From: an uncultured Pelagibacteraceae bacterium
GTDB lineage: Bacteria; Pseudomonadota; Alphaproteobacteria; Pelagibacterales; Pelagibacteraceae
Length of the DNA stretch: 64,000 nt
Direction: 5' to 3'
Assembly: GCA_902581605.1 (NCBI GenBank)
Contig: CACHPE010000005.1
Span: 1 to 64,000, forward strand
In this document: in pieces, positions 2,212-22,052 of the stretch
Layout of the letters: each line of letters starts with the position of its first letter
Numbering within the stretch: position 1 is the first letter of the stretch
The notes under the pieces: generated by a model
What the model saw: only the letters and a program-made list of their open reading frames with translations
Told to the model about the DNA's origin: nothing
Databases searched by the model: none
Position numbers and translations under genes: made by a program

Positions 2212-3468
2212 ATGCAAAAATATTCTATATTTAATTTGGTTAAAAACGCTTTCTCAAACCATGAAAATTGGGATTTAGCCTGGAAAGATCCAACACCTAA
2301 GGAAGAATACGATGTTGTAATTATTGGTGGTGGAGGCCATGGATTAGCTACAGCCTATTATCTTGCTAAAGAACATAACATTACAAAAGTTGCAATCATT
2401 GAGAAAGGATGGATTGGTGGAGGAAATGTAGGACGTAACACTACAATTATTAGATCCAATTACATGCATGACGAAAATGGTTTGTTCAGTGAGTTTGGGA
2501 TGGATTTATGGAGAAAGATGAGTCAGGATTTAAACTACAATGTAATGTTTTCTCCAAGAGGAATAATTAATCTTGCGCATTCTGATGCACAAATGAATGC
2601 ATACGCGAGAAGAGGAAATTCTATGAGATTAAATGGAATAGATGCTGTTCTTTTAAATAGAGAGCAAGTTAAAGAAATTATTCCAATGGCTGATTTTTCT
2701 GAAAACGTAAGGTTTCCAATTTTTGGTGGTTTGATGCAACCAAGTGCGGGCACAGCAAGACATGATGCTGTTGCATGGGGTTATGCACGTCAAGCAGATT
2801 CCATGGGTGTTGATATAATTCAAAATTGTGAGGTGATAGGTTTCGATGTTTCTGCTGGTAAAATAAAAGGAATAAGAACTTCACGAGGAAATATCAAAGC
2901 AAAAAAAATAGGTTTATGTGTTGCCGGAAGCACAAATATATTAGCTGAAAAATTAAATATGACTTTACCAATTGAAACTCATTTGCTTCAAGCATGTGTT
3001 TCTGAACCAGTTAAACCAGTTTTAGATAGTGTAGTTACTTTTGGTGCAGGACACTTTTATGTAAGTCAATCAGACAAAGGCGAGATGGTAATGGGTGGTG
3101 ATCTTGACGGGTACAATAGTTATGCTCAAAGGGGAAATCTACCGACATTGCAACATGTGTTAACAGAAGGAATAGCAATGATGCCGTTTTTAAGTAAATT
3201 AAAAATGCTTAGAACATGGGGTGGTATTATGGATATGTCAATGGATGGATCACCTATAATTGATAAAACACACATTGAAGGTTTATATTTAAATTGTGGA
3301 TGGTGTTATGGAGGGTTTAAAGCCACACCCGCTTCGGGCTGGACATTTGCTCATACTATTGCACAAGACAGAGTTCATGAGTTAAACGCTGGTTATAGTT
3401 TAAATAGATTTAGTACAGGTAATCTTATTGATGAAAAAGGACTTGGTACCAAAACTTGGATATCATAA
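2212..3468 (+). CDS. soxB: Sarcosine oxidase, beta subunit
   Basis: The 418-aa FAD/FMN subunit of heterotetrameric sarcosine oxidase. The N-terminal Rossmann motif IIGGGGHGLATAYYLA starts near residue 37 and binds FAD. The His in TARHDAVAWG (about residue 184) matches the histidine that carries covalent FMN in characterised enzymes. GGIMDMSMDGSPIID and CGWCYGGFKATPASG are typical of the C-terminal half. The tetramer oxidises sarcosine to glycine and passes the methyl to THF as 5,10-methylene-THF. It is first of four tightly packed genes; soxD starts at the very next base after the stop codon. Confidence 0.97.
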   Translation: MQKYSIFNLVKNAFSNHENWDLAWKDPTPKEEYDVVIIGGGGHGLATAYYLAKEHNITKVAIIEKGWIGGGNVGRNTTIIRSNYMHDENGLFSEFGMDLWRKMSQDLNYNVMFSPRGIINLAHSDAQMNAYARRGNSMRLNGIDAVLLNREQVKEIIPMADFSENVRFPIFGGLMQPSAGTARHDAVAWGYARQADSMGVDIIQNCEVIGFDVSAGKIKGIRTSRGNIKAKKIGLCVAGSTNILAEKLNMTLPIETHLLQACVSEPVKPVLDSVVTFGAGHFYVSQSDKGEMVMGGDLDGYNSYAQRGNLPTLQHVLTEGIAMMPFLSKLKMLRTWGGIMDMSMDGSPIIDKTHIEGLYLNCGWCYGGFKATPASGWTFAHTIAQDRVHELNAGYSLNRFSTGNLIDEKGLGTKTWIS

Positions 3469-3738
3469 ATGCTTTATATAAATTGCCCACATTGTGGAAT
3501 GAGATCTCAAAATGAATTTTCATACGGTGGAGACGCGAGCGTTAAAAGACCTGAGCTAAATAAAGAAGTTTCTGATCAAGAATGGGATGATTTTGTTTAT
3601 AATAGAAAAAGTTTAAGAGGAAAGCATTTAGAACTGTGGCAACATATTTCTGGATGTAGACAATGGATAAAGGTTGAGAGAGATACTGCAACCCATGAAA
3701 TATTTAGAACTTTTAAAGCCGATGAGGAAGTTGCTTAA
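3469..3738 (+). CDS. soxD: Sarcosine oxidase, delta subunit
   Basis: An 89-aa zinc-binding small subunit. Cys6, Cys9, His59 and Cys63 (CPHC near the start, then HISGC) sit at the positions used as zinc ligands in the characterised delta subunit. The length is normal. It begins directly after soxB, and its TAA stop shares its last base with the soxA ATG, so translation is probably coupled to keep subunits equimolar. It is structural within the SoxBDAG complex. Confidence 0.96.
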   Translation: MLYINCPHCGMRSQNEFSYGGDASVKRPELNKEVSDQEWDDFVYNRKSLRGKHLELWQHISGCRQWIKVERDTATHEIFRTFKADEEVA

Positions 3739-6734
3739 TGACCCAAGCTTTTAGAATTGAAAATGGGGGGTTAATAAATAGGGAAAAAAAATTATCCTTC
3801 AAATTTAATGGCAAAACATACTTTGGTTATGAAGGAGATACATTGGCATCAGCTTTATTGGCGAATGGAGTTCATTTAGTAGGAAGAAGTTTTAAATATC
3901 ACAGACCCAGAGGTTTTTTTGGGGCAGGTGTAGATGAACCTTATGCAGTTGTTCAACTTTATAGAAATGGTGAAACAGAACCTAATATTAAAGCAACAGA
4001 GCAGGAACTATTTGAGGGTTTAGAGGCAAAAAGTGTTAATTGTTGGCCAAGTGTTAATTTTGACATAGGTGCAATCAATAATTTTTTGAGAATTTTTTTA
4101 CCAGCAGGTTTTTATTACAAAACTTTTATGTGGCCGAAAAGTTTTTGGTATCGAATTTATGAGCCTTTCATAAGAAAAGCAGCTGGTTTAGGTGTAGCTT
4201 CAACTAAACACGATAATGAAAGATATGAACATAAATATGAATACTGTGATTTATTAATTGCAGGTTCAGGTCCTTCAGGTTTAGCTGGTGCATATGCAGC
4301 AGCAAAAAATGGAGCCAAAGTAATTTTAGCTGAAGATAAACCAAGATTTGGTGGATCTTTATTAACTAGTGATGTCAATATTGGCAATCAATCGGGAAAA
4401 GATTGGGCTGATGGCATAGTTGCTGAGTTAAAAACAATGCCCAATGTTGTTGTAAAAAATAGATCTCAAATTTTTGGATACTATGATCACAACATGCTTG
4501 TGATGTCGGAAAAAGTTAGTGATCATTTACCATCAACTAAAAAATATCACCCTAACAAAAGGTTATGGTATATTCGAGCAAAAGAAGTTTTGATTTCCTC
4601 AGGATCAATTGAAAGACCAATAGTTTTTGGAAATAATGATACACCAGGGGTAATGCTTTCTTCAGCCGCTAAAGAATATTTAAAAGTATATGGTGTTTTA
4701 GTTGGAAGAAAACCATTGGTATTTACAAATAACGATAGTGGATACGAAACAGCAATAGAATTTAAAAAACATGGAGTAGATCCAGTTGTTTTAGACTCAA
4801 GAAAAAATCCTGTGTCAGAAATAATTGATGAGGCAAAAAATTTAGGAATTAATATTAAAAATTCATATGTTGTTGTTGCAGCACAAGGATACAAAAAAGT
4901 AAAATCGGCAGATATCGCAAGTATTTCTGAAGACAAAAAACAACTTGGTAAAATAGAAAATGTACAATGTGATTGTATTTGCGTTTCAGGTTTTTGGACA
5001 CCAACTATTCATTTAGCCTCACAATCAGGAAATAAAACAAAGTTTAAAGAGGAAATTGATGCATTTGTTCCAGGACAATCAAAACAAAATGAAATTACTT
5101 TAGGTGCAGCTAATGGAGTATTTTCACTAGAGGAAACTTTAAAAACGTCATTTACAGCAGGAAGTGAATTATCAAAAAAAATTACTGAAAATGACAATAA
5201 GATAGCTATTCCAAATGTTGTTGAGAAAAAATCTTCTCAGCATGATAAGTTTTGGTGTGTTCCATTACCAAAAGGTAAAAATTATAAAAGATTTTTAGAT
5301 TTTCAAAACGATGTAGCAGTGTCTGATATAGAAATAGCTTTAAGAGAAGGGTATCGATCAATTGAACACGTTAAAAGGTATACCACTCTAGGAATGGCAA
5401 CAGACCAAGGAAAAACAAGTAATTTAAATGGATTACAATTAGTATCCGAAATTGAAAACAAAGTTGTTCCTGCAGTAGGCCATACGACTTTTAGGCCTCC
5501 ATATACTCCTGTTTCTATTGGAGCAATAGTAGGAAGAGAAGTTGGAAAGCATTCAAAACCAACAAGAAAATCTCCAATGCATTCATGGCATGAAAAAAAT
5601 AATGCAGTGTTTGTTGATGCAGGTGTCTGGTTAAGACCCAGGTATTATAGAAGAGGAAATGAAAATTTATTTGAGGGATCAAAAAGAGAAGCAAAAAATG
5701 TAAGAACAAATGTAGGTGTTTGCGATGTAACTACATTAGGTAAAATAGATATTAAAGGACCAGATGCAGCTGAGTTATTAAATAGAGTTTATACAAATTC
5801 ATGGTTGAAGCTACCAGTTGGTAAAGCTAGATATGGTGTAATGTTAAGAGAAGATGGAATTGTAATGGATGACGGAACAACTACAAGAATTTCTGAAAAT
5901 CATTATCATATGACTACAACAACAGCTCAAGCAGCAAACGTTCTTTCGCATTTAGAATATTATTTGCAACTCGTTTGGCCTGAATTAAATGTGAATGTAG
6001 TTTCAACTACGGAACAGTGGGCTGGAGCAGCTATAGCTGGACCTAAATCTAGAGATTTATTACAAAAATTATTTCCAAACTCTGATGTATCAAATGGAGG
6101 CTTACCTTTTATGGGCTATATGGAGGGAGATTTATTTGGTGTAAAAGCAAGAATATATAGAATTTCGTTTTCAGGCGAGCTTGCTTATGAGGTAAATGTT
6201 GAGTCTGATTATGGAAATTTTATGTGGGAAAAAATAATTGAAGTTGGTGAAGAATTTAATATTCAACCATATGGAACTGAAGCATTATCAACTCTTAGAA
6301 TTGAAATGGGACATGTTGCAGGATCAGAACTTGATGGTAGAACAATTCCATTCGATAATGCCTTAGAAGGTCTTGTTAGTAAAAAGAAAGATTTTATTGG
6401 AAAAAGATCATTACAAAGATCTGCATTTATAGCTGAAGATAGACAAAGAATAGTAGGCGTAGTTCCATTAGATAAACAAACAAGTATACCAGAAGGCTCT
6501 CACTTAGTTAAAGATGATAAAGCACCGTTACCAAATCCAAAATTAGGTCATATCTCTGCATCTTGTTGGAGTGTTGAATATGACAATCCTTTTTCTTTAG
6601 CAATTTTGAAAGATGGAAAAAATATGATAGGTCAAAAGCTTTTTGCGATGTCACCACTTAAAAACAAAGTAATACCAGTTGAGATAGTTTCATCACATTA
6701 TGTAGACCCGAAAGGTGAAAGAGTTAGATCATGA
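3738..6734 (+). CDS. soxA: Sarcosine oxidase, alpha subunit
   Basis: The 998-aa large subunit. Order of parts: an N-terminal Fer2_4-like region ([26 protein letters not shown]), an NAD(P)/FAD Rossmann domain beginning with [21 protein letters not shown] near residue 173, and from about residue 620 a GcvT/THF-binding domain ([36 protein letters not shown]). Ammonia channelling and methyl transfer to THF occur here in the family. It overlaps soxD by 1 nt and soxG by 4 nt. Full length with no visible defect. Confidence 0.97.
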
Positions 6735-7318
6735 CATTAATTTCAGCTTTATCAAATGTTCATACAAAAGGTCAATTCGGAGATTATAAAGGTAAAAATG
6801 GAAATGATATACTTAAAATATCTGAAATCAAAAATTTATTAATTATTCAAATAGTTCAGTACAAAAATTCTTCAGTTTCATTTGAGGGTATTGAGATTGA
6901 TGGTTTAAAATTAAAAAATAAACCTTTGGCCGTAGTATTTAATGAAAATACAAGGATTATGTGGAATGGACCAAAAAACTGGCTTTTAGTTTCAATAAAA
7001 AAAGATTTAATAAAAAATGTAGTAGATAAATTTAAAGATACAGATTTTGCTGTAACAGATTTATCTCATTCTAGAGCTATCATAGAAATCGAGGGAAATG
7101 ATATGATAGAAGTTTTGAAAAAAGGATGTCCTTTTAATTTTAATAAATTAGATAAAAACAATTCAATTAACTCAACTTATAATGGAATAGCTTTTACTGT
7201 AGATAGGTTGAGTGATAATCCAAATAAAGTAAGGATATTTACGCTAAGAAGCTTTGGCGAGTCTTTATATCATTCTATCACAGATGCATCTTTAGAGTTT
7301 GGTTTTGAAACAATATAA
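6731..7318 (+). CDS. soxG: Sarcosine oxidase, gamma subunit
   Basis: The 195-aa gamma subunit, related to the GcvT fold and the least conserved of the four. Recognisable features are [16 protein letters not shown] and the [14 protein letters not shown] segment followed by the GCPF/FN motif, as in other SoxG proteins. Its ATG overlaps the soxA stop by 4 nt. It ends the soxBDAG operon; the next gene is convergent, 10 nt away. Confidence 0.93.
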
Positions 7319-12411: not shown

Positions 12412-13377
12412 ATGAATTATAAAATCGATAATCTTCAATATTGTAATTGGTCTAGGAAAATCTTTGAGATCAACAGATCTGCTGGATTAGATGCTGTCCA
12501 TGTTACCATTGTCTACCATGAAGATTTTGATGAATTACTAATTGAAATTAAAAAATGGGAAAAATTATTTCATGAAAATTCTGATTTAATTTTTCTTGGT
12601 AAGAATTTCCAAGATATTGATAAAGCTAATAAAGAAAACAAAACTGCAATATTTTTTGGTTTTCAAAACTGTTCACCAATTGAAGATGACATAAATCTTG
12701 TTGAAAAGGTTCATCAATTAGGATGCAGATTTATGCAACTTACTTATAATAACCAGTCTTTGCTAGCAACAGGTTGTTATGAAAAAGTAGATAGTGGAGT
12801 TACAAATTTCGGACGTGAGGTTATAAGAGAAATGAATAGAATTGGCCTCGTGGTTGACATGTCACATTCTGCAGAAAAAAGTACTCTAGATGCAATTGAA
12901 TTCAGTGAAAAACCAATAGCAATTACTCATGCCAATCCCTCTTTTTGGCATCAAGCTAAAAGAAATAAATCCTCAGATTTATTAAAAATTTTGAGTGATA
13001 GTGGCGGTATGTTAGGTTTATCATTATATCCTCATCACTTAAAAGATAATACAAATTGTACTCTAGATAGTTTTTGTGAAATGGTGGCAAAAACAGCTGA
13101 AATAATGGATGTAAAAAAAATAGGAATAGGATCAGATCTTTGTTTAGATCATCCTGATACTGTTGTTGAATGGATGAGAAATGGTTCTTGGTCTAAAAGT
13201 AAAAATTATGGTGAAGGTTCGAAAAATAAACCAGGTTTTCCTAAACAACCTGACTGGTTTCTTGATGCAAGAGGTTTCAGAAATATTGAAAAAGGTCTAA
13301 AAAAAGCAGGTTTTTCAGATACCGAGACACATGGAATACTTGGAAATAACTGGTACAATTTTTATAAAACTATTTAA
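12412..13377 (+). CDS. M19 (membrane dipeptidase-like) protein with degenerate metal site
   Basis: A 321-aa TIM-barrel amidohydrolase of the M19 family from the ATG at 12412; a TTG at 12391 would add seven residues. DMSHS, ITHANP and GIGSDLC correspond to conserved M19 parts (the last two to the second-metal His and the catalytic Asp), and RNKSSD matches the RNxxD motif. However the N-terminal HxD metal motif is replaced by IDNLQYCNW, and the bridging Glu region reads FFGFQNCSP with Gln. Homologues of this GFQN type occur, from my knowledge, beside dimethylglycine/betaine genes in Pseudomonas. Substrate unknown; classical dipeptidase activity is doubtful. Confidence 0.8.
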   Translation: MNYKIDNLQYCNWSRKIFEINRSAGLDAVHVTIVYHEDFDELLIEIKKWEKLFHENSDLIFLGKNFQDIDKANKENKTAIFFGFQNCSPIEDDINLVEKVHQLGCRFMQLTYNNQSLLATGCYEKVDSGVTNFGREVIREMNRIGLVVDMSHSAEKSTLDAIEFSEKPIAITHANPSFWHQAKRNKSSDLLKILSDSGGMLGLSLYPHHLKDNTNCTLDSFCEMVAKTAEIMDVKKIGIGSDLCLDHPDTVVEWMRNGSWSKSKNYGEGSKNKPGFPKQPDWFLDARGFRNIEKGLKKAGFSDTETHGILGNNWYNFYKTI

Positions 13378-13379
13378 TT

Positions 13380-15041
13380 ATGAAAGTTGAATTAAGAGAC
13401 CCGAATAAGATAATGAAATTATCAAGGCTAGGATCTTTTCATCAATCAAAATTATCTTTTTTAAGAAGTTTTCTTAATGAATTTAAAGAGTGGGAGTATA
13501 AAAGGGATTTATTTAATTTAAATGAAAATGGTTTTGGAGAAGCTGTTTATTCAGTTAAAAAAAATAAAAGAGTTTATTCTTTAATTTGTTTTGCAAATGA
13601 AATCAAAGATGAAGAAAGATCAGACAGAGTTATTGCAACAAAATGGGATGCAGCTTTTACATTACATGATGGAGTTCCTACAAAAAAAGACATTGAAAGA
13701 TTAAAAAATGAAGTTCCAAAACAAGAAGTTGGTAGACTTTCTTATAAAGAATTAACTTTATCGAGAGCAAACAAATCAGTAAGAATTTATAATTATGTAG
13801 TTGAAAGTTTGAGCAAAGGTAAGCAGCCAGATTTAAACTTATTATCAAAAGTAGGCTATTTATATAGGACTACAGCAGTATATGGCTCAGGCAAATTTGG
13901 TCTTGCAGATCGATTTAGAATTAAAAATCGTGAGGAAATTAATGGTCCATTCAGATTAGAAATGATGTTGGTTTATTTGGTAAGACAATTTACTTTTGAT
14001 CAAGTTAATCATGTTGCTTATCATAAAAATCCAAAAACAGCTGTTAAGCTAGATGATAATATTTGTAAAAACTTGGGAATAGGTAATTCCACAGGATTGG
14101 GTATGGCTCCATTTATAATCAATCACCCCACTCTGCTAAATAATTGGATTTTAAGTAGAGAAAAAGCACTTAAGAAAATTAGAGAAATCAAAGATGTAGA
14201 AAGTCAAGATAGCGATTTGTTTATTGATTGTGTAAAAAAATCATTAAAAAATATTACAAGCTGGAATACTGATAGCGAATATCAGCAAAAAAAAATTTCT
14301 TCATTATTAAAGGATGTTGAAAAATTCTTAAATTTTATAGATAAAGATTTTAATTTTAAGAGCGAATATCCTTTTAACAAAATCTATCAATGGTTAGAGG
14401 ATAATACTTGTGAGGAATGTATTGAATACATAGTGTCAATAATGATGGAGCCTTATAACGATATTATAAATCCTTTGGTAAAAGAAATGAGTTCAGACGA
14501 AGAAAAATATTTTAATATTCCAACTCATAGAAAAGTTGAAGAATTGCGTGATATCATCGAAACAAAATATCCAAACATTTTAGATATTAATTTTGAAGAA
14601 AAAGAAAATAATAAAAACTTTTGGTTTATTTCAAAAAATAAAGAGGAACCTAGATTAGCTGATCGTTTTGAGGAGCATGGATCAGAATTAGAACAGCCTT
14701 TAGCAATAGCAAGAGATATAAAAAAACTTTATGACAAATTATTAGTCTCAAAAAATAGTTTAACTATTGCTGAGTTTTTAACATCAAATTCTGAGTTAAG
14801 ACATGTTGTAAGAAGAGCGTTCATTGTAGAAAAATTTCCTTATTCAGAAATACAAGATAATACAATTGGAAAAGATTTAATGCCAATTGATATGCTTAGA
14901 TTAAAATTGTCTTTCTTTGGGGCATTAAAATTTGATCCACGATCTGACAAATGGTTAAGAATTTGCATGTTTCAAGGAGCCCCACTTCCAAACGAGTTAA
15001 AAAGTTATGACGAGCAGTGGGTATATAAAACCAATATTTAA
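13380..15041 (+). CDS. Uncharacterised 553-aa protein of the M19-like module
   Basis: A large soluble protein with no signal peptide or membrane span that I cannot place in a named family. Conserved-looking parts are GRLSYKELTLSRANKSVRIYNYV, VYGSGKFGLADRF, the GNSTGLGMAPFIINHP segment and RFEEHGSELEQPLAIARDIKKLY. The GNSTGLGMAPFIINHP stretch looks like a ligand- or cofactor-binding loop, but that is only an impression. It starts 2 nt after the M19-like gene and ends 2 nt before the DUF3726-like gene, so it is part of one operon. Confidence 0.75.
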   Translation: MKVELRDPNKIMKLSRLGSFHQSKLSFLRSFLNEFKEWEYKRDLFNLNENGFGEAVYSVKKNKRVYSLICFANEIKDEERSDRVIATKWDAAFTLHDGVPTKKDIERLKNEVPKQEVGRLSYKELTLSRANKSVRIYNYVVESLSKGKQPDLNLLSKVGYLYRTTAVYGSGKFGLADRFRIKNREEINGPFRLEMMLVYLVRQFTFDQVNHVAYHKNPKTAVKLDDNICKNLGIGNSTGLGMAPFIINHPTLLNNWILSREKALKKIREIKDVESQDSDLFIDCVKKSLKNITSWNTDSEYQQKKISSLLKDVEKFLNFIDKDFNFKSEYPFNKIYQWLEDNTCEECIEYIVSIMMEPYNDIINPLVKEMSSDEEKYFNIPTHRKVEELRDIIETKYPNILDINFEEKENNKNFWFISKNKEEPRLADRFEEHGSELEQPLAIARDIKKLYDKLLVSKNSLTIAEFLTSNSELRHVVRRAFIVEKFPYSEIQDNTIGKDLMPIDMLRLKLSFFGALKFDPRSDKWLRICMFQGAPLPNELKSYDEQWVYKTNI

Positions 15042-15043
15042 TA

Positions 15044-15655
15044 ATGAAATCACTGAGTGAAATTGAAACTACTGTTAAAAGAGCTTCAAAGGCAGCAGGA
15101 TATTCTTGGGGAGTTTCCGAGGAAACAGGAAAAAGTATAAGGTTGTTAGAGCTATTTAGTTTACCGGGTATTAAGCACCTTAATGAATATTTAAATAAAA
15201 AAAATAAAAGTAAATTTGAAAATTTAAATTTAATTAGTGAAAATAATTCCTCATCAAATAATCCTTACTGTCCAATTACTTTAGGTGTTAGTTTTTTAGA
15301 TCAAATAAATGTTTTAGAAAAATTAAAAAAAATTGAGTTTAAAAATGTTGCTTATCCAATTATTTTTATTTCATTCATAAGTCGTTCATCAGAAATTATT
15401 GGAAAAAAGATTAATGTAAAAATAGATGAAAAAAAAATGTTATTAAATTTAAATGTAAATATTATTTCAAATTTTATTGACCAAGAATTTCCAAAGATAG
15501 CGAATAAAATTGAGGTCAATCTACTTGAAAATGAAGATAACTTTACAGACGATGAATGGAATAATTTATACAAATTATCCGAAGAAACTTTTGTTGAAGA
15601 GAGTGACAGTTTAAAAGAGGGTGCAGCTGGTGCTGGTTTGACTGATAATGACTGA
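15044..15655 (+). CDS. DUF3726-like protein
   Basis: A 203-aa soluble protein. The N-terminal SLSEIETTVKRASKAAGYSWG and the acidic end EESDSLKEGAAGAGLTDND resemble DUF3726 proteins, which I recall beside M19-like genes in other alphaproteobacteria; the family call is from memory and moderately sure. The middle (about residues 40-120) is lysine- and asparagine-rich and less conserved-looking. It overlaps the following 55-aa gene by 8 nt. No function is known. Confidence 0.65.
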   Translation: MKSLSEIETTVKRASKAAGYSWGVSEETGKSIRLLELFSLPGIKHLNEYLNKKNKSKFENLNLISENNSSSNNPYCPITLGVSFLDQINVLEKLKKIEFKNVAYPIIFISFISRSSEIIGKKINVKIDEKKMLLNLNVNIISNFIDQEFPKIANKIEVNLLENEDNFTDDEWNNLYKLSEETFVEESDSLKEGAAGAGLTDND

Positions 15656-15815
15656 TAAAACTGATGAAAAATATTTTAATACAGATAATGAAGAATTAAA
15701 CAATATTTGTGATGAATGTAAAGAGAAAGACGAAAGTGTAACTCAAAATTTAATTCTTACTGGGTTTAAATTATGTAAATCTTGTAGAGTATCTAAGACT
15801 ATTTTTCCGCTTTAA
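15648..15815 (+). CDS. Small double-CxxC (zinc-ribbon-like) protein, 55 aa
   Basis: The ATG at 15648 overlaps the DUF3726-like stop by 8 nt, and a clean frame runs to TAA at 15813-15815. The peptide starts MTDKTDEKYF and has two knuckles, CDEC (Cys21/Cys24) and CKSC (Cys43/Cys46), spaced as in a zinc ribbon, then ends TIFPL. The overlapping start, the paired cysteines and the lack of any other explanation for this interval support a real gene translated with the M19-like module. It ends tail-to-tail with the Yip1-like gene, overlapping by 4 nt. Function unknown. Confidence 0.7.
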   Translation: MTDKTDEKYFNTDNEELNNICDECKEKDESVTQNLILTGFKLCKSCRVSKTIFPL

Positions 15816-16506: not shown

Positions 16507-17865
16507 TTAGCCTTTTACAACTTCTCTTGTATTTGCGTTGAAAGATTCTTTGAATGGAATATCCACAACCACAGCATCTACAGGTGTTCCTGGAGTGTCC
16601 GAGTATTTTTCAGGAAGATGAACTTTGAACTTAGTTCCAACTTTATTTTTTGGAAATCCATTAGGGTTTAAAGTTCCATCAAACGGAACGTATCCCATAG
16701 CAATATTGGTTTTCTTCTCTGGATGCCACCATGGTGAAGTAAGAAATCCAACTGGATCTCCACCATTTTCTGGTGATACTAGCCAAAAGTCTGGCGCATA
16801 ATCGTCAATTGGCTTACCACCTAACTCCATTCCAACTAATTGAAGTTTATAGGGTTTTTTTCCAGCTTTTATGTCCGCTCCCATTTTCTCCAAAGCAGCT
16901 TTACCAACATAATCAGCTTTTTTATTCCATTCACCTTTACCAGATAATGAAACTTGATAACCTAAGTTACATTGAAAAGGATTATGTTGTTGGTCCATGT
17001 CTTGTCCCCAAGAAAGAATACCTGCTTGTATTCTTCTATGGTGTGCAGGTGCAATAACCATCAATTTATGTTTTTTTCCTGCATTTAATACTGCATTCCA
17101 CATATCTTCAGCATATAAAGTTGCATTTCTTAAATATATCTCATAACCAGCTTCTCCTGAAAAACCAGATTGAGAAATTATACAACTTCTTCCCCCAACT
17201 GTTGCTTCTGCTAATCCATAGAAAGGCATATTATCAAAATCAACTTGGTCTCCACAAAGGTCTTGCATTAAAGCTTTTGATTTAGGACCTTGAATTTGGA
17301 CTGGACATGCATCTATTTCCTCAATTGTACAATTAAATTTTCCATCTGCATTTACACCTTGTAAGTACATTCCGATATCAGAGTCAGATAACGAAAACCA
17401 AAATTCATCTTTTGAAATTCTTAAAAGAATTGGATCGTTTAAAACTCCTCCGTAAGCATTACATAAGATTACATATCTTGCTCTCATAGGAGAAATTTTT
17501 GTTGCATCTCTAGTTATAACGTAGTCAGTAAATTTTTCTGCATCTGGACCTTTAACTCTTATTTGTCTTTCAACAGCTACATTCCACATTGTAACATGGT
17601 TTACGATTGCATCATATTCAACCATTGCTCCACCATCTTCAGGTTTTACATAACCTCTTGGGTGATAAATACGATTGTATACAGTTGCTCTCCAACAACC
17701 TGCCTGCATTGATAAATGCCAATAAGGTGACTTTCTTACCCTTGTTGAAATTAGTAATTCAACTTTTGTTGGCCCACTCTGTCTTAAATTGTATGGTACT
17801 TCTCTATCTGATTGATCAACAGAAGTAACATGTTGTACTTTAGTATAGTCAAATTCTTTAGACAT
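16507..17865 (-). CDS. DmdA/GcvT-family THF-dependent demethylase or aminomethyltransferase
   Basis: A 452-aa GcvT-fold protein. Blocks MWNVAVERQIRVKGPDAEKF, RYVILCNAYGGVLNDPILLR and WFSLSDSDIGMYLQGV resemble DMSP demethylase DmdA, and GFSGEAGYEIYL plus the RIQAGILSWGQDM helix are general GcvT features. It is about 80 residues longer than DmdA as I recall it, so it may act on another methylated compound. A methyl group would move to THF, and the MetF-like product of the adjacent gene (8-nt overlap) could oxidise methyl-THF. Family secure; the substrate (DMSP, betaine-like or other) is inference. Confidence 0.82.
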   Translation of the reverse strand: MSKEFDYTKVQHVTSVDQSDREVPYNLRQSGPTKVELLISTRVRKSPYWHLSMQAGCWRATVYNRIYHPRGYVKPEDGGAMVEYDAIVNHVTMWNVAVERQIRVKGPDAEKFTDYVITRDATKISPMRARYVILCNAYGGVLNDPILLRISKDEFWFSLSDSDIGMYLQGVNADGKFNCTIEEIDACPVQIQGPKSKALMQDLCGDQVDFDNMPFYGLAEATVGGRSCIISQSGFSGEAGYEIYLRNATLYAEDMWNAVLNAGKKHKLMVIAPAHHRRIQAGILSWGQDMDQQHNPFQCNLGYQVSLSGKGEWNKKADYVGKAALEKMGADIKAGKKPYKLQLVGMELGGKPIDDYAPDFWLVSPENGGDPVGFLTSPWWHPEKKTNIAMGYVPFDGTLNPNGFPKNKVGTKFKVHLPEKYSDTPGTPVDAVVVDIPFKESFNANTREVVKG

Positions 17866-18586
17866 AACTATTCTCCTTCAACCACTTGTTAGTTTCCTTC
17901 AAGCCGCCGAATGTATAAATGTGGAAGTTATCAGTATGCGATTTAACTTTCCCAATTAAATCATTAGGGTCTTTAGGTTTCAATAAATCTAATGCCTTTG
18001 TAAAATTAGATTTAAGAAAGTTAATGGAATTTTTTGCCCCTACAATATTAGCAAATTTTATTAAGCTAGATATTTTTAATGGCCCAGTAATTCCCACATG
18101 CACTGGTACGCTTTGCTTAGAAATAAAATCTATAATAGGCTGAGGATCTAGCAACCATTGAGTTACGATGTAGTCAGCATAAGGCTTTTTATCTATCATA
18201 GCTTTTTCTAAATTTGAGTCGGATATATCAGGACTCCCCTCTGGATGTCCAGCAATTCCTATTTTCATTTTTTCAAAATAACCTGTCTCTAAAAGTTGAA
18301 ATGAACTATCAAATTTACCTGCTGGTTCTCTTCCACCTCCAATAATCAAGGCTTGCTTTACTCCTCCATCTTTGCATCTAGAAACATAATCTTTAAGTTC
18401 TTTTTCATCATGCATTGATCTAGCAGGAAAATGAGGTACGGGGTTAAATCCTTTTTTTACAAGTTCTACTGCTTTATCAGCAGTTTCTCTATAATCACCC
18501 CCAGGTAGCATTGTTATATAAATGTCAGACAACGCTGGAACTGTATCAAGCTCTGTTTTAGGTCCAATTTCCAATGAAAAATTCAT
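17858..18586 (-). CDS. Methylenetetrahydrofolate reductase-like protein (short MetF)
   Basis: A 242-aa FAD-type TIM-barrel of the MetF superfamily, about 50 residues shorter than E. coli MetF. IYITMLPGGDY, ALIIGGGREPAG, KIGIAGHPEGSPD and YIVTQWLLDPQPIIDFISK correspond to MetF strands (the last is FFVTQ... in MetF, near the FAD/folate site). It overlaps the demethylase gene by 8 nt. Together they suggest a methyl-to-THF then methyl-THF to methylene-THF route, MetF running oxidatively. The role of a dedicated paralogue is inference. Confidence 0.82.
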   Translation of the reverse strand: MNFSLEIGPKTELDTVPALSDIYITMLPGGDYRETADKAVELVKKGFNPVPHFPARSMHDEKELKDYVSRCKDGGVKQALIIGGGREPAGKFDSSFQLLETGYFEKMKIGIAGHPEGSPDISDSNLEKAMIDKKPYADYIVTQWLLDPQPIIDFISKQSVPVHVGITGPLKISSLIKFANIVGAKNSINFLKSNFTKALDLLKPKDPNDLIGKVKSHTDNFHIYTFGGLKETNKWLKENSYV

Positions 18587-18643: not shown

Positions 18644-19531
18644 TTACTTTTTTAACTGACCTCTGTGCTTTTGAATTCTTTGTCCGTACTGTTGAGTTAC
18701 TCTATCAAAGATAATTGCCAGAGCTACGATTGCTAAACCATTCATCATTCCAAGAGCTAAATATTGATTGGAAATAGCCTGTAAAATAGGGACTCCTAAG
18801 CCTTTTACACCTATCATTGAAGCAATCACTACCATTGCTAAAGCCATCATAATCGTCTGGTTAATCCCAGCAAAAATAGTTGGTAGAGAAAGTGGAATTT
18901 GAACTGATCTTAATTTTTGCATTGGTGTTGCCCCAAAAGCTTCACTAGCTTCAAGTGTTTCTTTATCAACTTCTCTAATCCCTAGATTTGTTAATCTTAC
19001 GATTGGAGGTAAAGCATAAATACAAACTGCTAAGAGTCCTGGAACTTTACCAATACCAAGAAGCATAATGATTGGAATTAAATATACAAAGCTTGGAATA
19101 GTTTGCATCATATCTAAAACAGGTAAAATTGCTTTTTCTGCTCTTGCTGATTTTGACATTAACACTCCAATTGGAATTCCAACAACAATGCAAACTAATG
19201 TAGAAACGGAAATGATTGCAACTGTAGCCATACAATTTTTCCACATTCCAAAGTAGCCAATTACCAAGAAACAAACCACTGTACCAATTACAAGCTTAAC
19301 ACTTCTTGATCCAATCCAAGCCAATATAGCAAACATACCAATTACTAAAGGCCATGGGCTATTTACTAATAATTTTTCTAACCAAATTAAAAAATGTAAC
19401 AGTGGATCAAAAAAACCTTCAATACCATCACCATACGCTCTAGAAAATTCTTTGAAACTAGAATCAATTCCTTTTTTAAGCTCTCTAAGAGCCGTTCTAT
19501 CCATTACAGGAATTTTATTAAAGAAGTCCAT
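18644..19531 (-). CDS. Betaine-type ABC transporter permease (ProW/OpuAB-like)
   Basis: A 295-aa inner-membrane permease with about six to seven helices. Seen: GIPIGVLMSKS, QTIPSFVYLIPIIMLLGIG and the EAA-loop region EASEAFGATPMQKLRSVQIPLSLPTI that docks the ATPase. These are hallmarks of ProW-type permeases for quaternary ammonium or sulfonium osmolytes. The binding-protein gene lies upstream across a strong hairpin. No ProV/OpuAA ATPase gene is present in this operon or elsewhere in the window, so the ATPase must be encoded elsewhere or shared. Confidence 0.93.
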   Translation of the reverse strand: MDFFNKIPVMDRTALRELKKGIDSSFKEFSRAYGDGIEGFFDPLLHFLIWLEKLLVNSPWPLVIGMFAILAWIGSRSVKLVIGTVVCFLVIGYFGMWKNCMATVAIISVSTLVCIVVGIPIGVLMSKSARAEKAILPVLDMMQTIPSFVYLIPIIMLLGIGKVPGLLAVCIYALPPIVRLTNLGIREVDKETLEASEAFGATPMQKLRSVQIPLSLPTIFAGINQTIMMALAMVVIASMIGVKGLGVPILQAISNQYLALGMMNGLAIVALAIIFDRVTQQYGQRIQKHRGQLKK

Positions 19532-19543
19532 AATTTTTATTAA

Positions 19544-19569
19544 ATCAAACCCGCCGAAGCGGGTTTGAT
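19544..19569 (-). terminator. Intercistronic UUCG hairpin between binding-protein and permease genes
   Basis: A perfect 11-bp inverted repeat (atcaaacccgc at 19544-19554, gcgggtttgat at 19559-19569). In minus-strand RNA it closes with a C(UUCG)G tetraloop, an exceptionally stable hairpin. It lies 11 nt after the binding-protein stop and 12 nt before the permease start. Likely a partial terminator or 3'-end protector giving more binding-protein mRNA than permease mRNA. Confidence 0.8.
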
Positions 19570-19580
19570 AATATTTTTAA

Positions 19581-20591
19581 TTAAAGTGCTTTTTTGATTT
19601 TTTTTGCAGCATCACTTGAAACCCATTTACTCCAAACGCTCTCTTGAGTTTTAAGGAATTCAATTGCAGCATCAGCACCTTCTGCTTGGTTTTCACCCAT
19701 CCAAACTAACATACCGTTCATAACTGGACCTGGGTATGTTCTCTTCTTAAAGTATTCCATACCAGCACTTCCAGCTGTATTTTTGAAATTATCAGTTACG
19801 ACTGTGTAAACTTCAGATTTTGTCCATGAAGTTGCTTTAGGGTCTCCACATTCTTGTTCTGGTAAAACTATACATTTATCCCAGTTATCTTTTCCACCCC
19901 AAGCTCCCATATCTACAGCTCTCATATCATATTTACCAATGATAGCTGTTGGTGACCAATAGTAACCAAACCAGTTTTCACCTCGCTCAGCAGCTTTAGC
20001 AATTGAACCATCTAATCCTGCAGCAGAACCTGTTTCAACAATAGCCCAACCTTTTGCTTCCATGTCAAAAGCTTTGTAAAGATTTCTATTACTTAGCTCA
20101 CAGTTCCAACCTGGAGGACAAATATGAAAACCACCTTTTGATGGATCTTCTGGATGAGGAAACAGATCTGGTCTTGCTAAAATTGCTTCAGCAGTTGTTA
20201 GCTCTGGATGTTTTTTAAGTGTGTGAGGTAATACCCACCAACCTTCACCCAAACCAGTAATTGGCGCTTTGTTAAGTGAGTGCATTTTACCTTCATCAAC
20301 AGCTTTATTCAAAGCGATGATAGCAGCGTTAGCCCAAAACTCTGGAGCAACATCTGGCTCACCTTTTTCTTGCATTGATGTAAATGTAGGCATTGTAGCA
20401 CCAGGCACTAATTCTACTGAACATCCATAACCTTCTTCTAATATGATCTTGTCAACTTCAGCCATAAAGTTTGCTGAAGCCCAGTTCATATTAGCAATTG
20501 TTATATTTCCACAAGCTGCATTCGCAACACTTCCAAAGGAAGTAAGACCAAACACAACAGCTAGTGAAAGAAGTATTCTTTTAATCTTCAT
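19581..20591 (-). CDS. Glycine betaine/DMSP-type substrate-binding protein (ProX/OpuAC-like)
   Basis: A periplasmic OpuAC-family protein. I start it at 20591 (MKIKRILLSLAVVF...) rather than 20615 because GGGAGAT lies just upstream and the shorter form has a classic signal peptide cleaved near ANA-AC. Trp-rich motifs (ANMNWASANF, PEFWANAAI, GEGWWVLP, NWFGYYWSP) fit an aromatic cage for a trimethylammonium or sulfonium head group. Cysteine pairs (CPPGWNC; CIVLPEQEC) may form disulfides. Operon with permease, MetF-like and DmdA-like genes, so the ligand is probably catabolised as a methyl donor. Confidence 0.93.
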   Translation of the reverse strand: MKIKRILLSLAVVFGLTSFGSVANAACGNITIANMNWASANFMAEVDKIILEEGYGCSVELVPGATMPTFTSMQEKGEPDVAPEFWANAAIIALNKAVDEGKMHSLNKAPITGLGEGWWVLPHTLKKHPELTTAEAILARPDLFPHPEDPSKGGFHICPPGWNCELSNRNLYKAFDMEAKGWAIVETGSAAGLDGSIAKAAERGENWFGYYWSPTAIIGKYDMRAVDMGAWGGKDNWDKCIVLPEQECGDPKATSWTKSEVYTVVTDNFKNTAGSAGMEYFKKRTYPGPVMNGMLVWMGENQAEGADAAIEFLKTQESVWSKWVSSDAAKKIKKAL

Positions 20592-20820
20592 TATATCTCC
20601 CAACATTTGATTCATTTAAAAGTTAAATTGAACATATTGAGCGTAATAATGCAAATTTAATTCAACTATTGGTTGCAGTAAAATTGTCTTTAACTGACCA
20701 AAATTTTTGTTTAGAATTTTAGTATGATTTTTTCTGCAAATTTTTTTTTCAAAGAATTTGTTTATATTTTGAATTGCAAAACTGTTTTTCAACAAATCAT
20801 AATTAGAGAAAGATAATTTT
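20592..20820. promoter_or_regulatory. Divergent intergenic region, binding-protein gene / Rieske gene
   Basis: About 230 nt of very AT-rich DNA separating the two divergent operons; long for this compact genome. It must hold promoters for both sides. I see no confident sigma hexamers and no open frame on either strand. The 3' end merges into the structured leader at 20821-20864. Confidence 0.4.
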
Positions 20821-20864: not shown

Positions 20865-22052
20865 ATGAATTTAAATAAAAAATTATCAGACATCTTAGAT
20901 CCCAATAAAATAGAAGTTGTTAAAAATCCTATAGAGAAAGCTCATGGATTACCTAACGAATGTTATTTGAATAATGTTTATTTAGAGTTTGAAAAAGAAA
21001 AAATATTTAAAAATAATTGGACTATGATTGGGGTTGCAAGCTCTGTACCAAATCCAGGCGATGCAAAACCTTTTAATCTTTTAGGAATACCAATACTAAT
21101 AGTTAGAAACAAAGAGAATGAAGTAAAAGTTTTTCATAATGTTTGTAGTCATAGAGGTTTCAAATTAGTTGATCAGGAATGTAAATTAAAAAATGTAATA
21201 AGATGCCCTTATCATTCTTGGTCCTATGATTTTAATGGAAAATTAACTGTTACTCCACATATAGGAGGACTAGGAAAACATGAGGTTGAAGGGTTCGATA
21301 AAAACAAGAGTAACTTAAAAGAAATTAAATCAAATATTTGGATGGATTTAATTTTTATTAATATTAATTCTAATGCAAAACCATTTGAAGATTTTATTAA
21401 ACCTCTACAGGATAGATGGTCTAAGTTTATTTCTAAAAAAGATCAAAAATTAATAAGACATTCGACTGATAACGGATATTTTAATATGACAGTAAATAGT
21501 AATTGGAAATTTGCAATTGAGAATTATTGTGAAAGTTATCATTTGCCGTGGATACATCCAGAACTAAATAAAGTTTCAAATATTTCAGATCACTATCATA
21601 TTGAAGATGAGAATTTAAATTTTTCAGGACAAGGAAGTAATAAATATTCACAACAGTTTGATGGAAACATTAAATTTAAATGCTTTCCTAACTGGCCTAC
21701 TGAACTTTCTGAAAAATCTGAATATGTATCATTATATCCAAACGTAATGTTAGGAATACATATTGATCATTTCTATGCATTTTGGTTAGAGCCAATTTCT
21801 AACAATCAAACTAAAGAACATTTTGAATTATATTATGTTGGAGACGAAAGTGCCTCTAGTGATGAGTTTAAACACATAAGAGAAAAAAATTTTGCATTTT
21901 GGCAAGAAGTCATGAATGAAGATGTAACTGCAATAGAAGGAATGCAAAACGGGCGAAATTCTCCAGCTTACAATGGTGGAAATTTTTCACCTGTAATGGA
22001 TACTCCTACTTTGATATTTCATAAGTGGGTTGCAACCAACTTAACAAAATGA
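20865..22052 (+). CDS. Rieske non-heme iron oxygenase, alpha subunit (GbcA/choline-monooxygenase-like)
   Basis: A 395-aa ring-hydroxylating-type oxygenase. The Rieske [2Fe-2S] ligands are Cys94, His96, Cys114 and His117; the mononuclear iron site is His226 and His231 in ESYHLPWIHPEL, preceded by Glu219/Glu223 as electron-bridge candidates. Related enzymes hydroxylate glycine betaine, stachydrine, carnitine or choline methyl groups. Next to bhmT, a betaine-type substrate is likely, giving a demethylated amine. No reductase (GbcB-like) gene is in the window. It begins a long plus-strand operon behind an SD-masking leader. Confidence 0.88.
   Translation: MNLNKKLSDILDPNKIEVVKNPIEKAHGLPNECYLNNVYLEFEKEKIFKNNWTMIGVASSVPNPGDAKPFNLLGIPILIVRNKENEVKVFHNVCSHRGFKLVDQECKLKNVIRCPYHSWSYDFNGKLTVTPHIGGLGKHEVEGFDKNKSNLKEIKSNIWMDLIFININSNAKPFEDFIKPLQDRWSKFISKKDQKLIRHSTDNGYFNMTVNSNWKFAIENYCESYHLPWIHPELNKVSNISDHYHIEDENLNFSGQGSNKYSQQFDGNIKFKCFPNWPTELSEKSEYVSLYPNVMLGIHIDHFYAFWLEPISNNQTKEHFELYYVGDESASSDEFKHIREKNFAFWQEVMNEDVTAIEGMQNGRNSPAYNGGNFSPVMDTPTLIFHKWVATNLTK

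Follow-up and report, generated by a model that had tools for sequence, protein, structure and literature searches.

What is the function of four tightly packed genes in the genome of an uncultured Pelagibacteraceae bacterium (SAR11; class Alphaproteobacteria), the first of which encodes a dipeptidase-like protein without its usual metal site? We analyzed positions 1 to 64,000 of contig CACHPE010000005.1 (assembly GCA_902581605.1), hereafter the window, in which these genes lie on the forward strand. They encode, in order, an M19-fold protein of the GxQN subfamily (321 aa, 12412..13377), a protein of an unrecognised family that we call P553 (553 aa, 13380..15041), a DUF3726 protein (15044..15655) and a zinc-ribbon peptide with two CxxC motifs (55 aa, 15648..15815). 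Taking ATG 12412 as the M19 start (TTG 12391 in the list of open reading frames), the frame boundaries leave 2 nt between the first and second genes and 2 nt between the second and third, and the last two genes overlap by 8 nt, just as reported in an earlier note on this DNA. We propose that these genes are the SAR11 form of a core for the breakdown of a cyclic N-methyl betaine taken up by the cell, with homarine (N-methylpicolinate) as the most likely compound, and that the route leads towards N-methylglutamate and glutamate; we give this reading a probability of about 0.5. The module itself is real, conserved and biologically interesting. Part of its novelty may already be contained in a 2026 paper on homarine; what we put forward here is that DUF3726 is predicted to be a reduced Ldh_2 protein whose tail is near-invariant, that the GxQN subfamily is a wide one, that the module is linked to N-methylglutamate dehydrogenase (Mgd), and that the zinc-ribbon peptide was seen only in SAR11.

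Conservation of the gene block

The SAR11 loci that we compared are the best 80 of 583 P553 relatives, not a free sample. All 80 carry the M19 gene and 79 the DUF3726 gene, the contig ending first in L053. Their surroundings are also shared: two upstream genes (which we take to be purE and purK), a downstream membrane protein, a DmdA/GcvT-like gene and a gene resembling methylenetetrahydrofolate reductase (MTHFR) were each found in 68 to 77 of 81 SAR11 sources (the 80 loci, some of them incomplete, plus the window), with 71 for the DmdA/GcvT-like gene and 68 for the MTHFR-like one. Within the SAR11 family, P553 is common but patchy, with 45 of 147 genomes carrying it and 22 of the 53 more complete ones.

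Among 142 genomes of the class, P553 was present in 21, DUF3726 in 15 and a close M19 homologue (at least 48% identity; the next match has 39%) in 19. All 15 DUF3726 genomes and all 19 M19 genomes fall inside the 21 with P553, and neither gene was found outside them (Fisher p of 7.9e-16 and 1.2e-21, respectively, with no correction for kinship). DUF3726 is next to P553 in 15 of 15 genomes, while M19 lies within 2 kb of it in 16 of 19. Regarding the six P553 genomes without a DUF3726 match, three are fragmentary or broken (G074, G077 and G088), two are diverged (G057 and G122), and in the last (G084) the P553 partner escapes the Pfam DUF3726 model and ends in GAGAGQIDND. According to these results, M19, P553 and DUF3726 form a conserved unit, and the conserved neighbourhood on which the earlier note depended is found across SAR11 and class genomes. 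The three partners that it named are not of equal standing: P553 and DUF3726 are the core, and the zinc-ribbon peptide was seen only in SAR11.

This peptide gave a single, sub-threshold match (ZZ). It was found in 74 of the 80 SAR11 loci, and the differences among its copies number 448, 106 and 1078 at codon positions 1, 2 and 3; because of this occurrence and this pattern, it is a real gene, under purifying selection. Two of the six loci without it (L053 and L119) end with the contig, and no frame with two CxxC motifs follows DUF3726 in L072, L076, L102 and L104 (4 of the 78 SAR11 loci running past DUF3726). Beyond SAR11, it was not found in the three loci examined for it, and a search of 33 loci gave no match at 1e-6, although such a search has little power for only 55 aa. 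We also considered whether this putative member of the pathway is a LysW-like carrier and dropped the idea, as no result supported it.

Features of the encoded proteins

The first protein matches PF01244 from profile position 38 onwards (E 2.4e-69, 234 bits against a cut-off of 26) and is the only M19 match in the whole genome. Like the M19 renal dipeptidase, it belongs to this sequence family and has the segments DxSH, [TS]H and G[ST]D; it differs from that enzyme by having no HxD, Gln for Glu and Tyr for His152. These losses, the first two of which the earlier note had read from the sequence, hold up by alignment with solved dipeptidases: IDNLQYCNW occupies the place of HxD, Gln85 sits at the bridging Glu, and Tyr112 at His152 (human-enzyme ligand numbers). 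HxD was absent at the first strand from all 28 rows reaching it, three of them partly gapped, out of 30 aligned. The later metal-site segments are kept, as had also been noted, with H152, H173 and D242 (window numbering) present in each of the 29 rows counted, which exclude L186. All 30 aligned rows (the window and 29 relatives) carry GxQN, so the loss of HxD and Glu is not special to the module but a trait of a wide subfamily, the GxQN type, to which the solved 2i5g also belongs. In SAR11, GFQN is found in 79 of 80 copies; the exception is probably L065, ended by the contig end.

One could argue that the metal pair has only moved: an H-x-D, in the segment YHED, lies about 30 residues after the lost site, and 78 of the 80 SAR11 copies have an H-x-D within their first 60 residues. 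We weighed this point against the loss and rejected YHED as a relocated metal pair of the family, because its Asp position varies (D, N, T, L or R) across the 19 module-type rows, even though SAR11 keeps H-x-D. Four residues (H30, E37, S153 and H209) are invariant in the module-type rows; among the 10 other rows, H30 is present in 2, E37 in 9, and S153 and H209 in none. Of the original metal centre, no more than a site for one metal would remain, and the usual binuclear zinc site is impossible. The notion of a repurposed M19-fold protein with conserved partners is supported, and the residue losses offered for it belong to the whole subfamily. The best solved relative is 2i5g, an ‘amidohydrolase’ that we take to come from P. 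aeruginosa, with a full-length match (E 2e-57), GFQN and no HxD. Together with a dipeptidase-like gene found beside dgcAB, it belongs to a subgroup other than that of the window protein. No mention of 2I5G was found in the literature searched, nor of PA5396 among the papers listed.

P553, called unfamiliar in the earlier note, gave no match in Pfam, NCBIfam or PHROGs, none in the PDB by single sequence, and one chance-level PDB match by profile (E 1.1). Its closest matches are SAR11 records, with identities of up to 99%. Among 14 alphaproteobacterial sequences, namely window P553 and 13 relatives with 38-59% identity to it, 101 columns are invariant, which speaks for P553 being an enzyme. Its AF2 model, with a mean predicted local distance difference test score (pLDDT) of 72.6, had no match in the PDB by structure search (best Foldseek E 0.2, best VIA-align Z 3.8); because the invariant segments are poorly modelled, we make no claim of a new fold. 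P553 and DUF3726 are labelled as hypothetical or DUF in the annotated records examined. A viral origin was discarded, since 18 pattern matches in viral contigs included no relative.

The family also reaches rhizobia and one haloarchaeon, Natrinema, where P553 (L130 12091-14621) is accompanied by an Ldh_2-like partner and then a BCCT transporter. Diverged P553 genes (24-28%) with a partner and an M19 gene lie on plasmids of Sinorhizobium, Aminobacter and Neorhizobium (L131 11944-15390, L133 11962-15370 and L141 10001-13340). In the two of these records that are annotated, the diverged P553 is flanked by an IclR gene on one side and an ABC transporter on the other, and it may belong to a sister pathway.

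The third protein matches PF12525 well above its gathering score (E 3.4e-23, 81.7 bits against 22.1), in agreement with its description as DUF3726-like; no mention of DUF3726 was found in the literature searched. Its model is good (pLDDT 86.7) save for the last 8 residues. These residues nevertheless rank with the best conserved of the protein: the ending is AGAGL-x-DND in 77 of 78 complete SAR11 proteins (AGAGLTDND in the window) and AGSGLTDND in the other. Compared with known structures by VIA-align, the model matches malate/ureidoglycolate-type dehydrogenases with Z of 8.3-10 over 156-182 residues (root-mean-square deviation 3.4-8.6). The top 15 rows are all Ldh_2-type dehydrogenases, and the next unrelated row has Z 4.4; Foldseek alone gave E 0.04. 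Profile comparison matched the N-terminal helices to Ldh_2 (E 1.8e-5, probability 78%), from an input alignment that included one stray one-residue row, and PF02615 itself did not match the window protein at E up to 1. The catalytic His of Ldh_2 enzymes lies in an SHG segment, which faces a gap in the profile alignment. The Natrinema partner of P553 does match PF02615 (4.8e-9, 36.2 bits), under the cut-off of 38.8. We thus predict DUF3726 to be a reduced Ldh_2-fold protein, of about 203 aa in SAR11, with SHG in a gap and a flexible, near-invariant tail added. P553 partners in Sinorhizobium, Aminobacter, Mesorhizobium, Natrinema and Vibrio end in the same tail motif, variously degraded, and Shinella gave only a 57-residue DUF3726 match.

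Neighbourhoods beyond SAR11 and N-methylglutamate dehydrogenase

On Roseobacter and rhizobial plasmids, the unit lies in an operon that runs LysR, aldehyde dehydrogenase (ALDH), M19, in some cases BCCT, P553, DUF3726 and usually Ldh, often followed by a BCCT or ProXWV-type transporter. Aminobacter, Aliiroseovarius and Rhodobacteraceae M382 show the order LysR-ALDH-M19-P553-DUF3726-Ldh-transporter, while the BCCT transporter is inside the operon in Phaeobacter M623, TM1040, Tritonibacter and Sulfitobacter. Ldh is not listed in the Sulfitobacter operon or in one DSM 17395 operon. Vibrio campbellii has LysR, ALDH, M19, BCCT and P553, and in L029, a member of the class whose P553 is 59% identical, Ldh on the opposite strand is followed by ProX, ProW, an ATPase, ALDH, M19, P553 and DUF3726. 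The nearest family of the ALDH is 2,5-dioxovalerate dehydrogenase, under the cut-off. In comparison with the Roseobacter operons, the SAR11 block has no adjacent ALDH or Ldh and has the zinc-ribbon gene in addition.

The linkage to Mgd comes from genes of the soxBDAG type. These adjoin the module operon, together with an AraC-type regulator, in Aliiroseovarius, Phaeobacter M623, DSM 17395 and TM1040, and lie about 4-5 kb from the module in G065. At least two soxA-family genes were found in 15 of the 21 P553 genomes and in 11 of the 121 others. For phylogenies, reference soxA and soxB genes were labelled by their neighbours: dmm (Paracoccus), mgs-type and glnT (Aminobacter), mgs-type (Rhizobium), glyA (Mesorhizobium) and purU (Vibrio), the last label being weak because purU also occurs in the Paracoccus cluster. 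In the alpha-subunit tree, the four module-linked rows group with dmm- or mgs/glnT-linked genes (100/100), and the sarcosine oxidases linked to glyA and purU lie apart from them. For the beta subunit of Aliiroseovarius, identity is 73-79% with the dmm/mgs-linked type and 51-53% with the sarcosine-oxidase type. Module-linked Roseobacter soxBDAG thus falls in the clade of MgdABCD, which we propose as a downstream partner outside the four-gene block. As neither glnT (gmaS) nor mgs is listed in the Roseobacter module stretches, whose gene tables are incomplete, direct formation of N-methylglutamate is more likely than synthesis from free methylamine.

The window has its own soxBDAG-type operon, a candidate Mgd, at 2212..7315 on the forward strand, some 5 kb upstream of the four-gene block, with soxB (2212-3465) and soxA (3738-6731) named by similarity and soxD (3469-3735) and soxG (6731-7315) by position only. 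Its soxB falls on the Mgd side with 100/100 under a midpoint root. The other soxBDAG copy of the genome (L209 7568-11791) is of the sarcosine-oxidase type. The portion of Sun et al. that we could consult (PMC3160333) proposes one of two SAR11 soxBDAG sets as an N-methylglutamate dehydrogenase.

In P. inhibens DSM 17395, the Ldh after DUF3726 (L219 16402-17405) is a two-piece match that is unlisted as a gene and perhaps broken, and its plasmid carries a second P553 operon (L129). In Shinella, genes annotated as NADH:flavin oxidoreductase, dimethylsulfoniopropionate (DMSP) lyase and electron transfer flavoprotein (ETF) beta subunit (L138 22219-25635) lie 9-12 kb from P553.

Proposed function and alternatives

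Putting these lines together, we infer the following route. A betaine transporter would import the compound. P553 would perform the first, ring-attacking step together with DUF3726, a putative partner without redox function that would dock on P553 by its invariant C-terminal tail. The M19-fold protein, with at most one metal on its two remaining His, might then hydrolyse a C-N bond of the intermediate. In the Roseobacter and rhizobial operons, the Ldh_2 reductase and a semialdehyde dehydrogenase could complete the product to N-methylglutamate, from which the heterotetrameric Mgd would yield glutamate and methylene-tetrahydrofolate. The arithmetic of homarine + 4 H2O -> N-methylglutamate + formate + 2 H is balanced, so homarine could be broken down by hydrolytic steps and a single net oxidation. 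A role on a ‘betaine-derived amide’ had been tentatively suggested for the M19-like protein; the betaine part agrees with the neighbouring transport genes, nothing observed speaks directly for the amide, and the Mgd link points to a route ending in N-methylglutamate.

In the part of PMC13390433 available to us, Mgd is said to take part in homarine catabolism, with reference to Ferrer-Gonzalez et al. 2026 (Nat Microbiol 11:1531), whose title describes the homarine pathway as conserved in environmental bacteria. Our module is likewise widespread and Mgd-linked. If P553 and DUF3726 start homarine breakdown, a common marine osmolyte would be tied to very abundant ocean bacteria, and there would be a marker gene and an uncharacterised enzyme for opening N-methylpyridinium rings. 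The GxQN subfamily of M19, met otherwise as the solved 2i5g and as the unexplained gene beside dgcAB, would also gain a testable function. A tentative extension, which we hold to be rather doubtful, is that P553 and its Ldh_2-derived partner form a new two-component enzyme class, from SAR11 to a haloarchaeon, in which a partner without redox core would complete the P553 active site with its flexible tail (approximately [VA]P.[TS]..SR..GAG) and N-methylated heterocycles would be opened without an oxygenase.

Several results weigh against this homarine route. The likeness to the published pathway is drawn from the title and the citing paper, not gene by gene, and the synteny in several Roseobacters and the trees make a link to Mgd, not a proof of substrate. 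The soxA of the window forms a long branch that arises between the Mgd and Sox clades and, with a midpoint root, falls on the side of the latter. M19 and P553 are on separate contigs in G034, G057 and G088; in G057 (L220 2503-14191), mgd-type genes run convergently towards an M19-Ldh pair, ahead of which lie LysR and genes that we take to be a TAXI-TRAP transporter, and P553 is not at the site. Diverged P553 copies accompany other ABC transporters, so the family is not bound to one substrate. The 20 class loci, some of them incomplete, have ALDH (at least 50% identity) in 3, Ldh (at least 38%) in 7 and a match to the betaine transporter queries in 4. ALDH at this level was found in 4 of 21 P553 genomes and in 11 of 121 others (p 0.24), that is, without enrichment, and a place for it among the core genes is unsupported. 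In the SAR11 genome (82% complete), no ALDH above 37% and no Ldh above 33% identity to the G030 versions was found. DMSP genes lie near the module in Phaeobacter, and dimethylglycine-type genes in Shinella. These results on gene content and neighbourhoods would be compatible with the route if the entry step, that of P553, were variable, although none of them had been predicted. Separately, Ruegeria pomeroyi DSS-3 is absent among the P553 matches listed (part of 168 records); this strain draws down homarine according to the excerpt consulted of PMC12817926.

Other cyclic N-methyl betaines fit almost as well as homarine, and the same gene logic could serve another N-methyl heterocycle ending in N-methylglutamate, such as N-methylproline or stachydrine, trigonelline or N-methylpipecolate. 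Betaine transporters, an Ldh_2 reductase and Mgd-type genes would suit any of these, the delta1-piperideine-2-carboxylate reductase fold (1wtj) is among the structural matches of DUF3726, and P553 extends to rhizobia and a haloarchaeon. Occurrence in SAR11 (those 45 of 147 family genomes) and in Roseobacters suits a marine osmolyte better, and within the literature searched, as far as the text available to us goes, the Mgd link is stated only for homarine. We therefore consider a different heterocycle unlikely, while leaving it an appreciable share.

Glycine betaine or dimethylglycine catabolism, the setting that the earlier note gave for similar proteins in Pseudomonas, is a quite improbable role for the M19-like protein and its partners. 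The Pseudomonas neighbour itself is real: according to the part of PMC12093977 consulted, the dgcAB genes of V. natriegens and P. aeruginosa come after genes for a predicted dipeptidase and a hypothetical protein. In addition, 2i5g is the best solved M19 relative, a GbcA-like oxygenase lies in the window (20865-22052), and the Shinella NADH:flavin oxidoreductase and ETF gene, about 9 kb from P553, resemble a dgc cluster. The 2i5g-like M19 rows, marked by IDGLII, are nevertheless a separate subgroup (32-35% identical), and no NADH:flavin oxidoreductase/ETF pair adjoins the module in the other named operons examined. Service in DMSP or methylsulfur metabolism seems less probable still. The DmdA-like and MTHFR-like genes beside the SAR11 module had been speculated to act in DMSP demethylation (PMC3160333, in the portion consulted), dmdA/dmdD-type genes lie near the module in Phaeobacter, and the gene annotated as DMSP lyase is about 11 kb from it in Shinella, but neither a dmd nor a DMSP-lyase gene is listed in the TM1040, Aliiroseovarius, Aminobacter, Sulfitobacter and M382 stretches.

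Downstream of the block, the window encodes on the reverse strand the DmdA/GcvT-like aminomethyltransferase (16507..17865), the MTHFR-like protein paired with it (17858..18586), whose matches are under the family cut-offs, and the permease and binding protein of a betaine/proline-type ABC transporter (18644..20615), which cluster with the L029 genes that match annotated Aminobacter ProW and ProX. Beside these transporter genes, the GbcA-like Rieske oxygenase scores far under the NCBIfam cut-off for glycine betaine monooxygenase, and for this reason its substrate may be another betaine. Finally, the DmdA/GcvT-like and MTHFR-like pair (16507-18586) is kept near the module in most SAR11 loci and possibly belongs to the same pathway.

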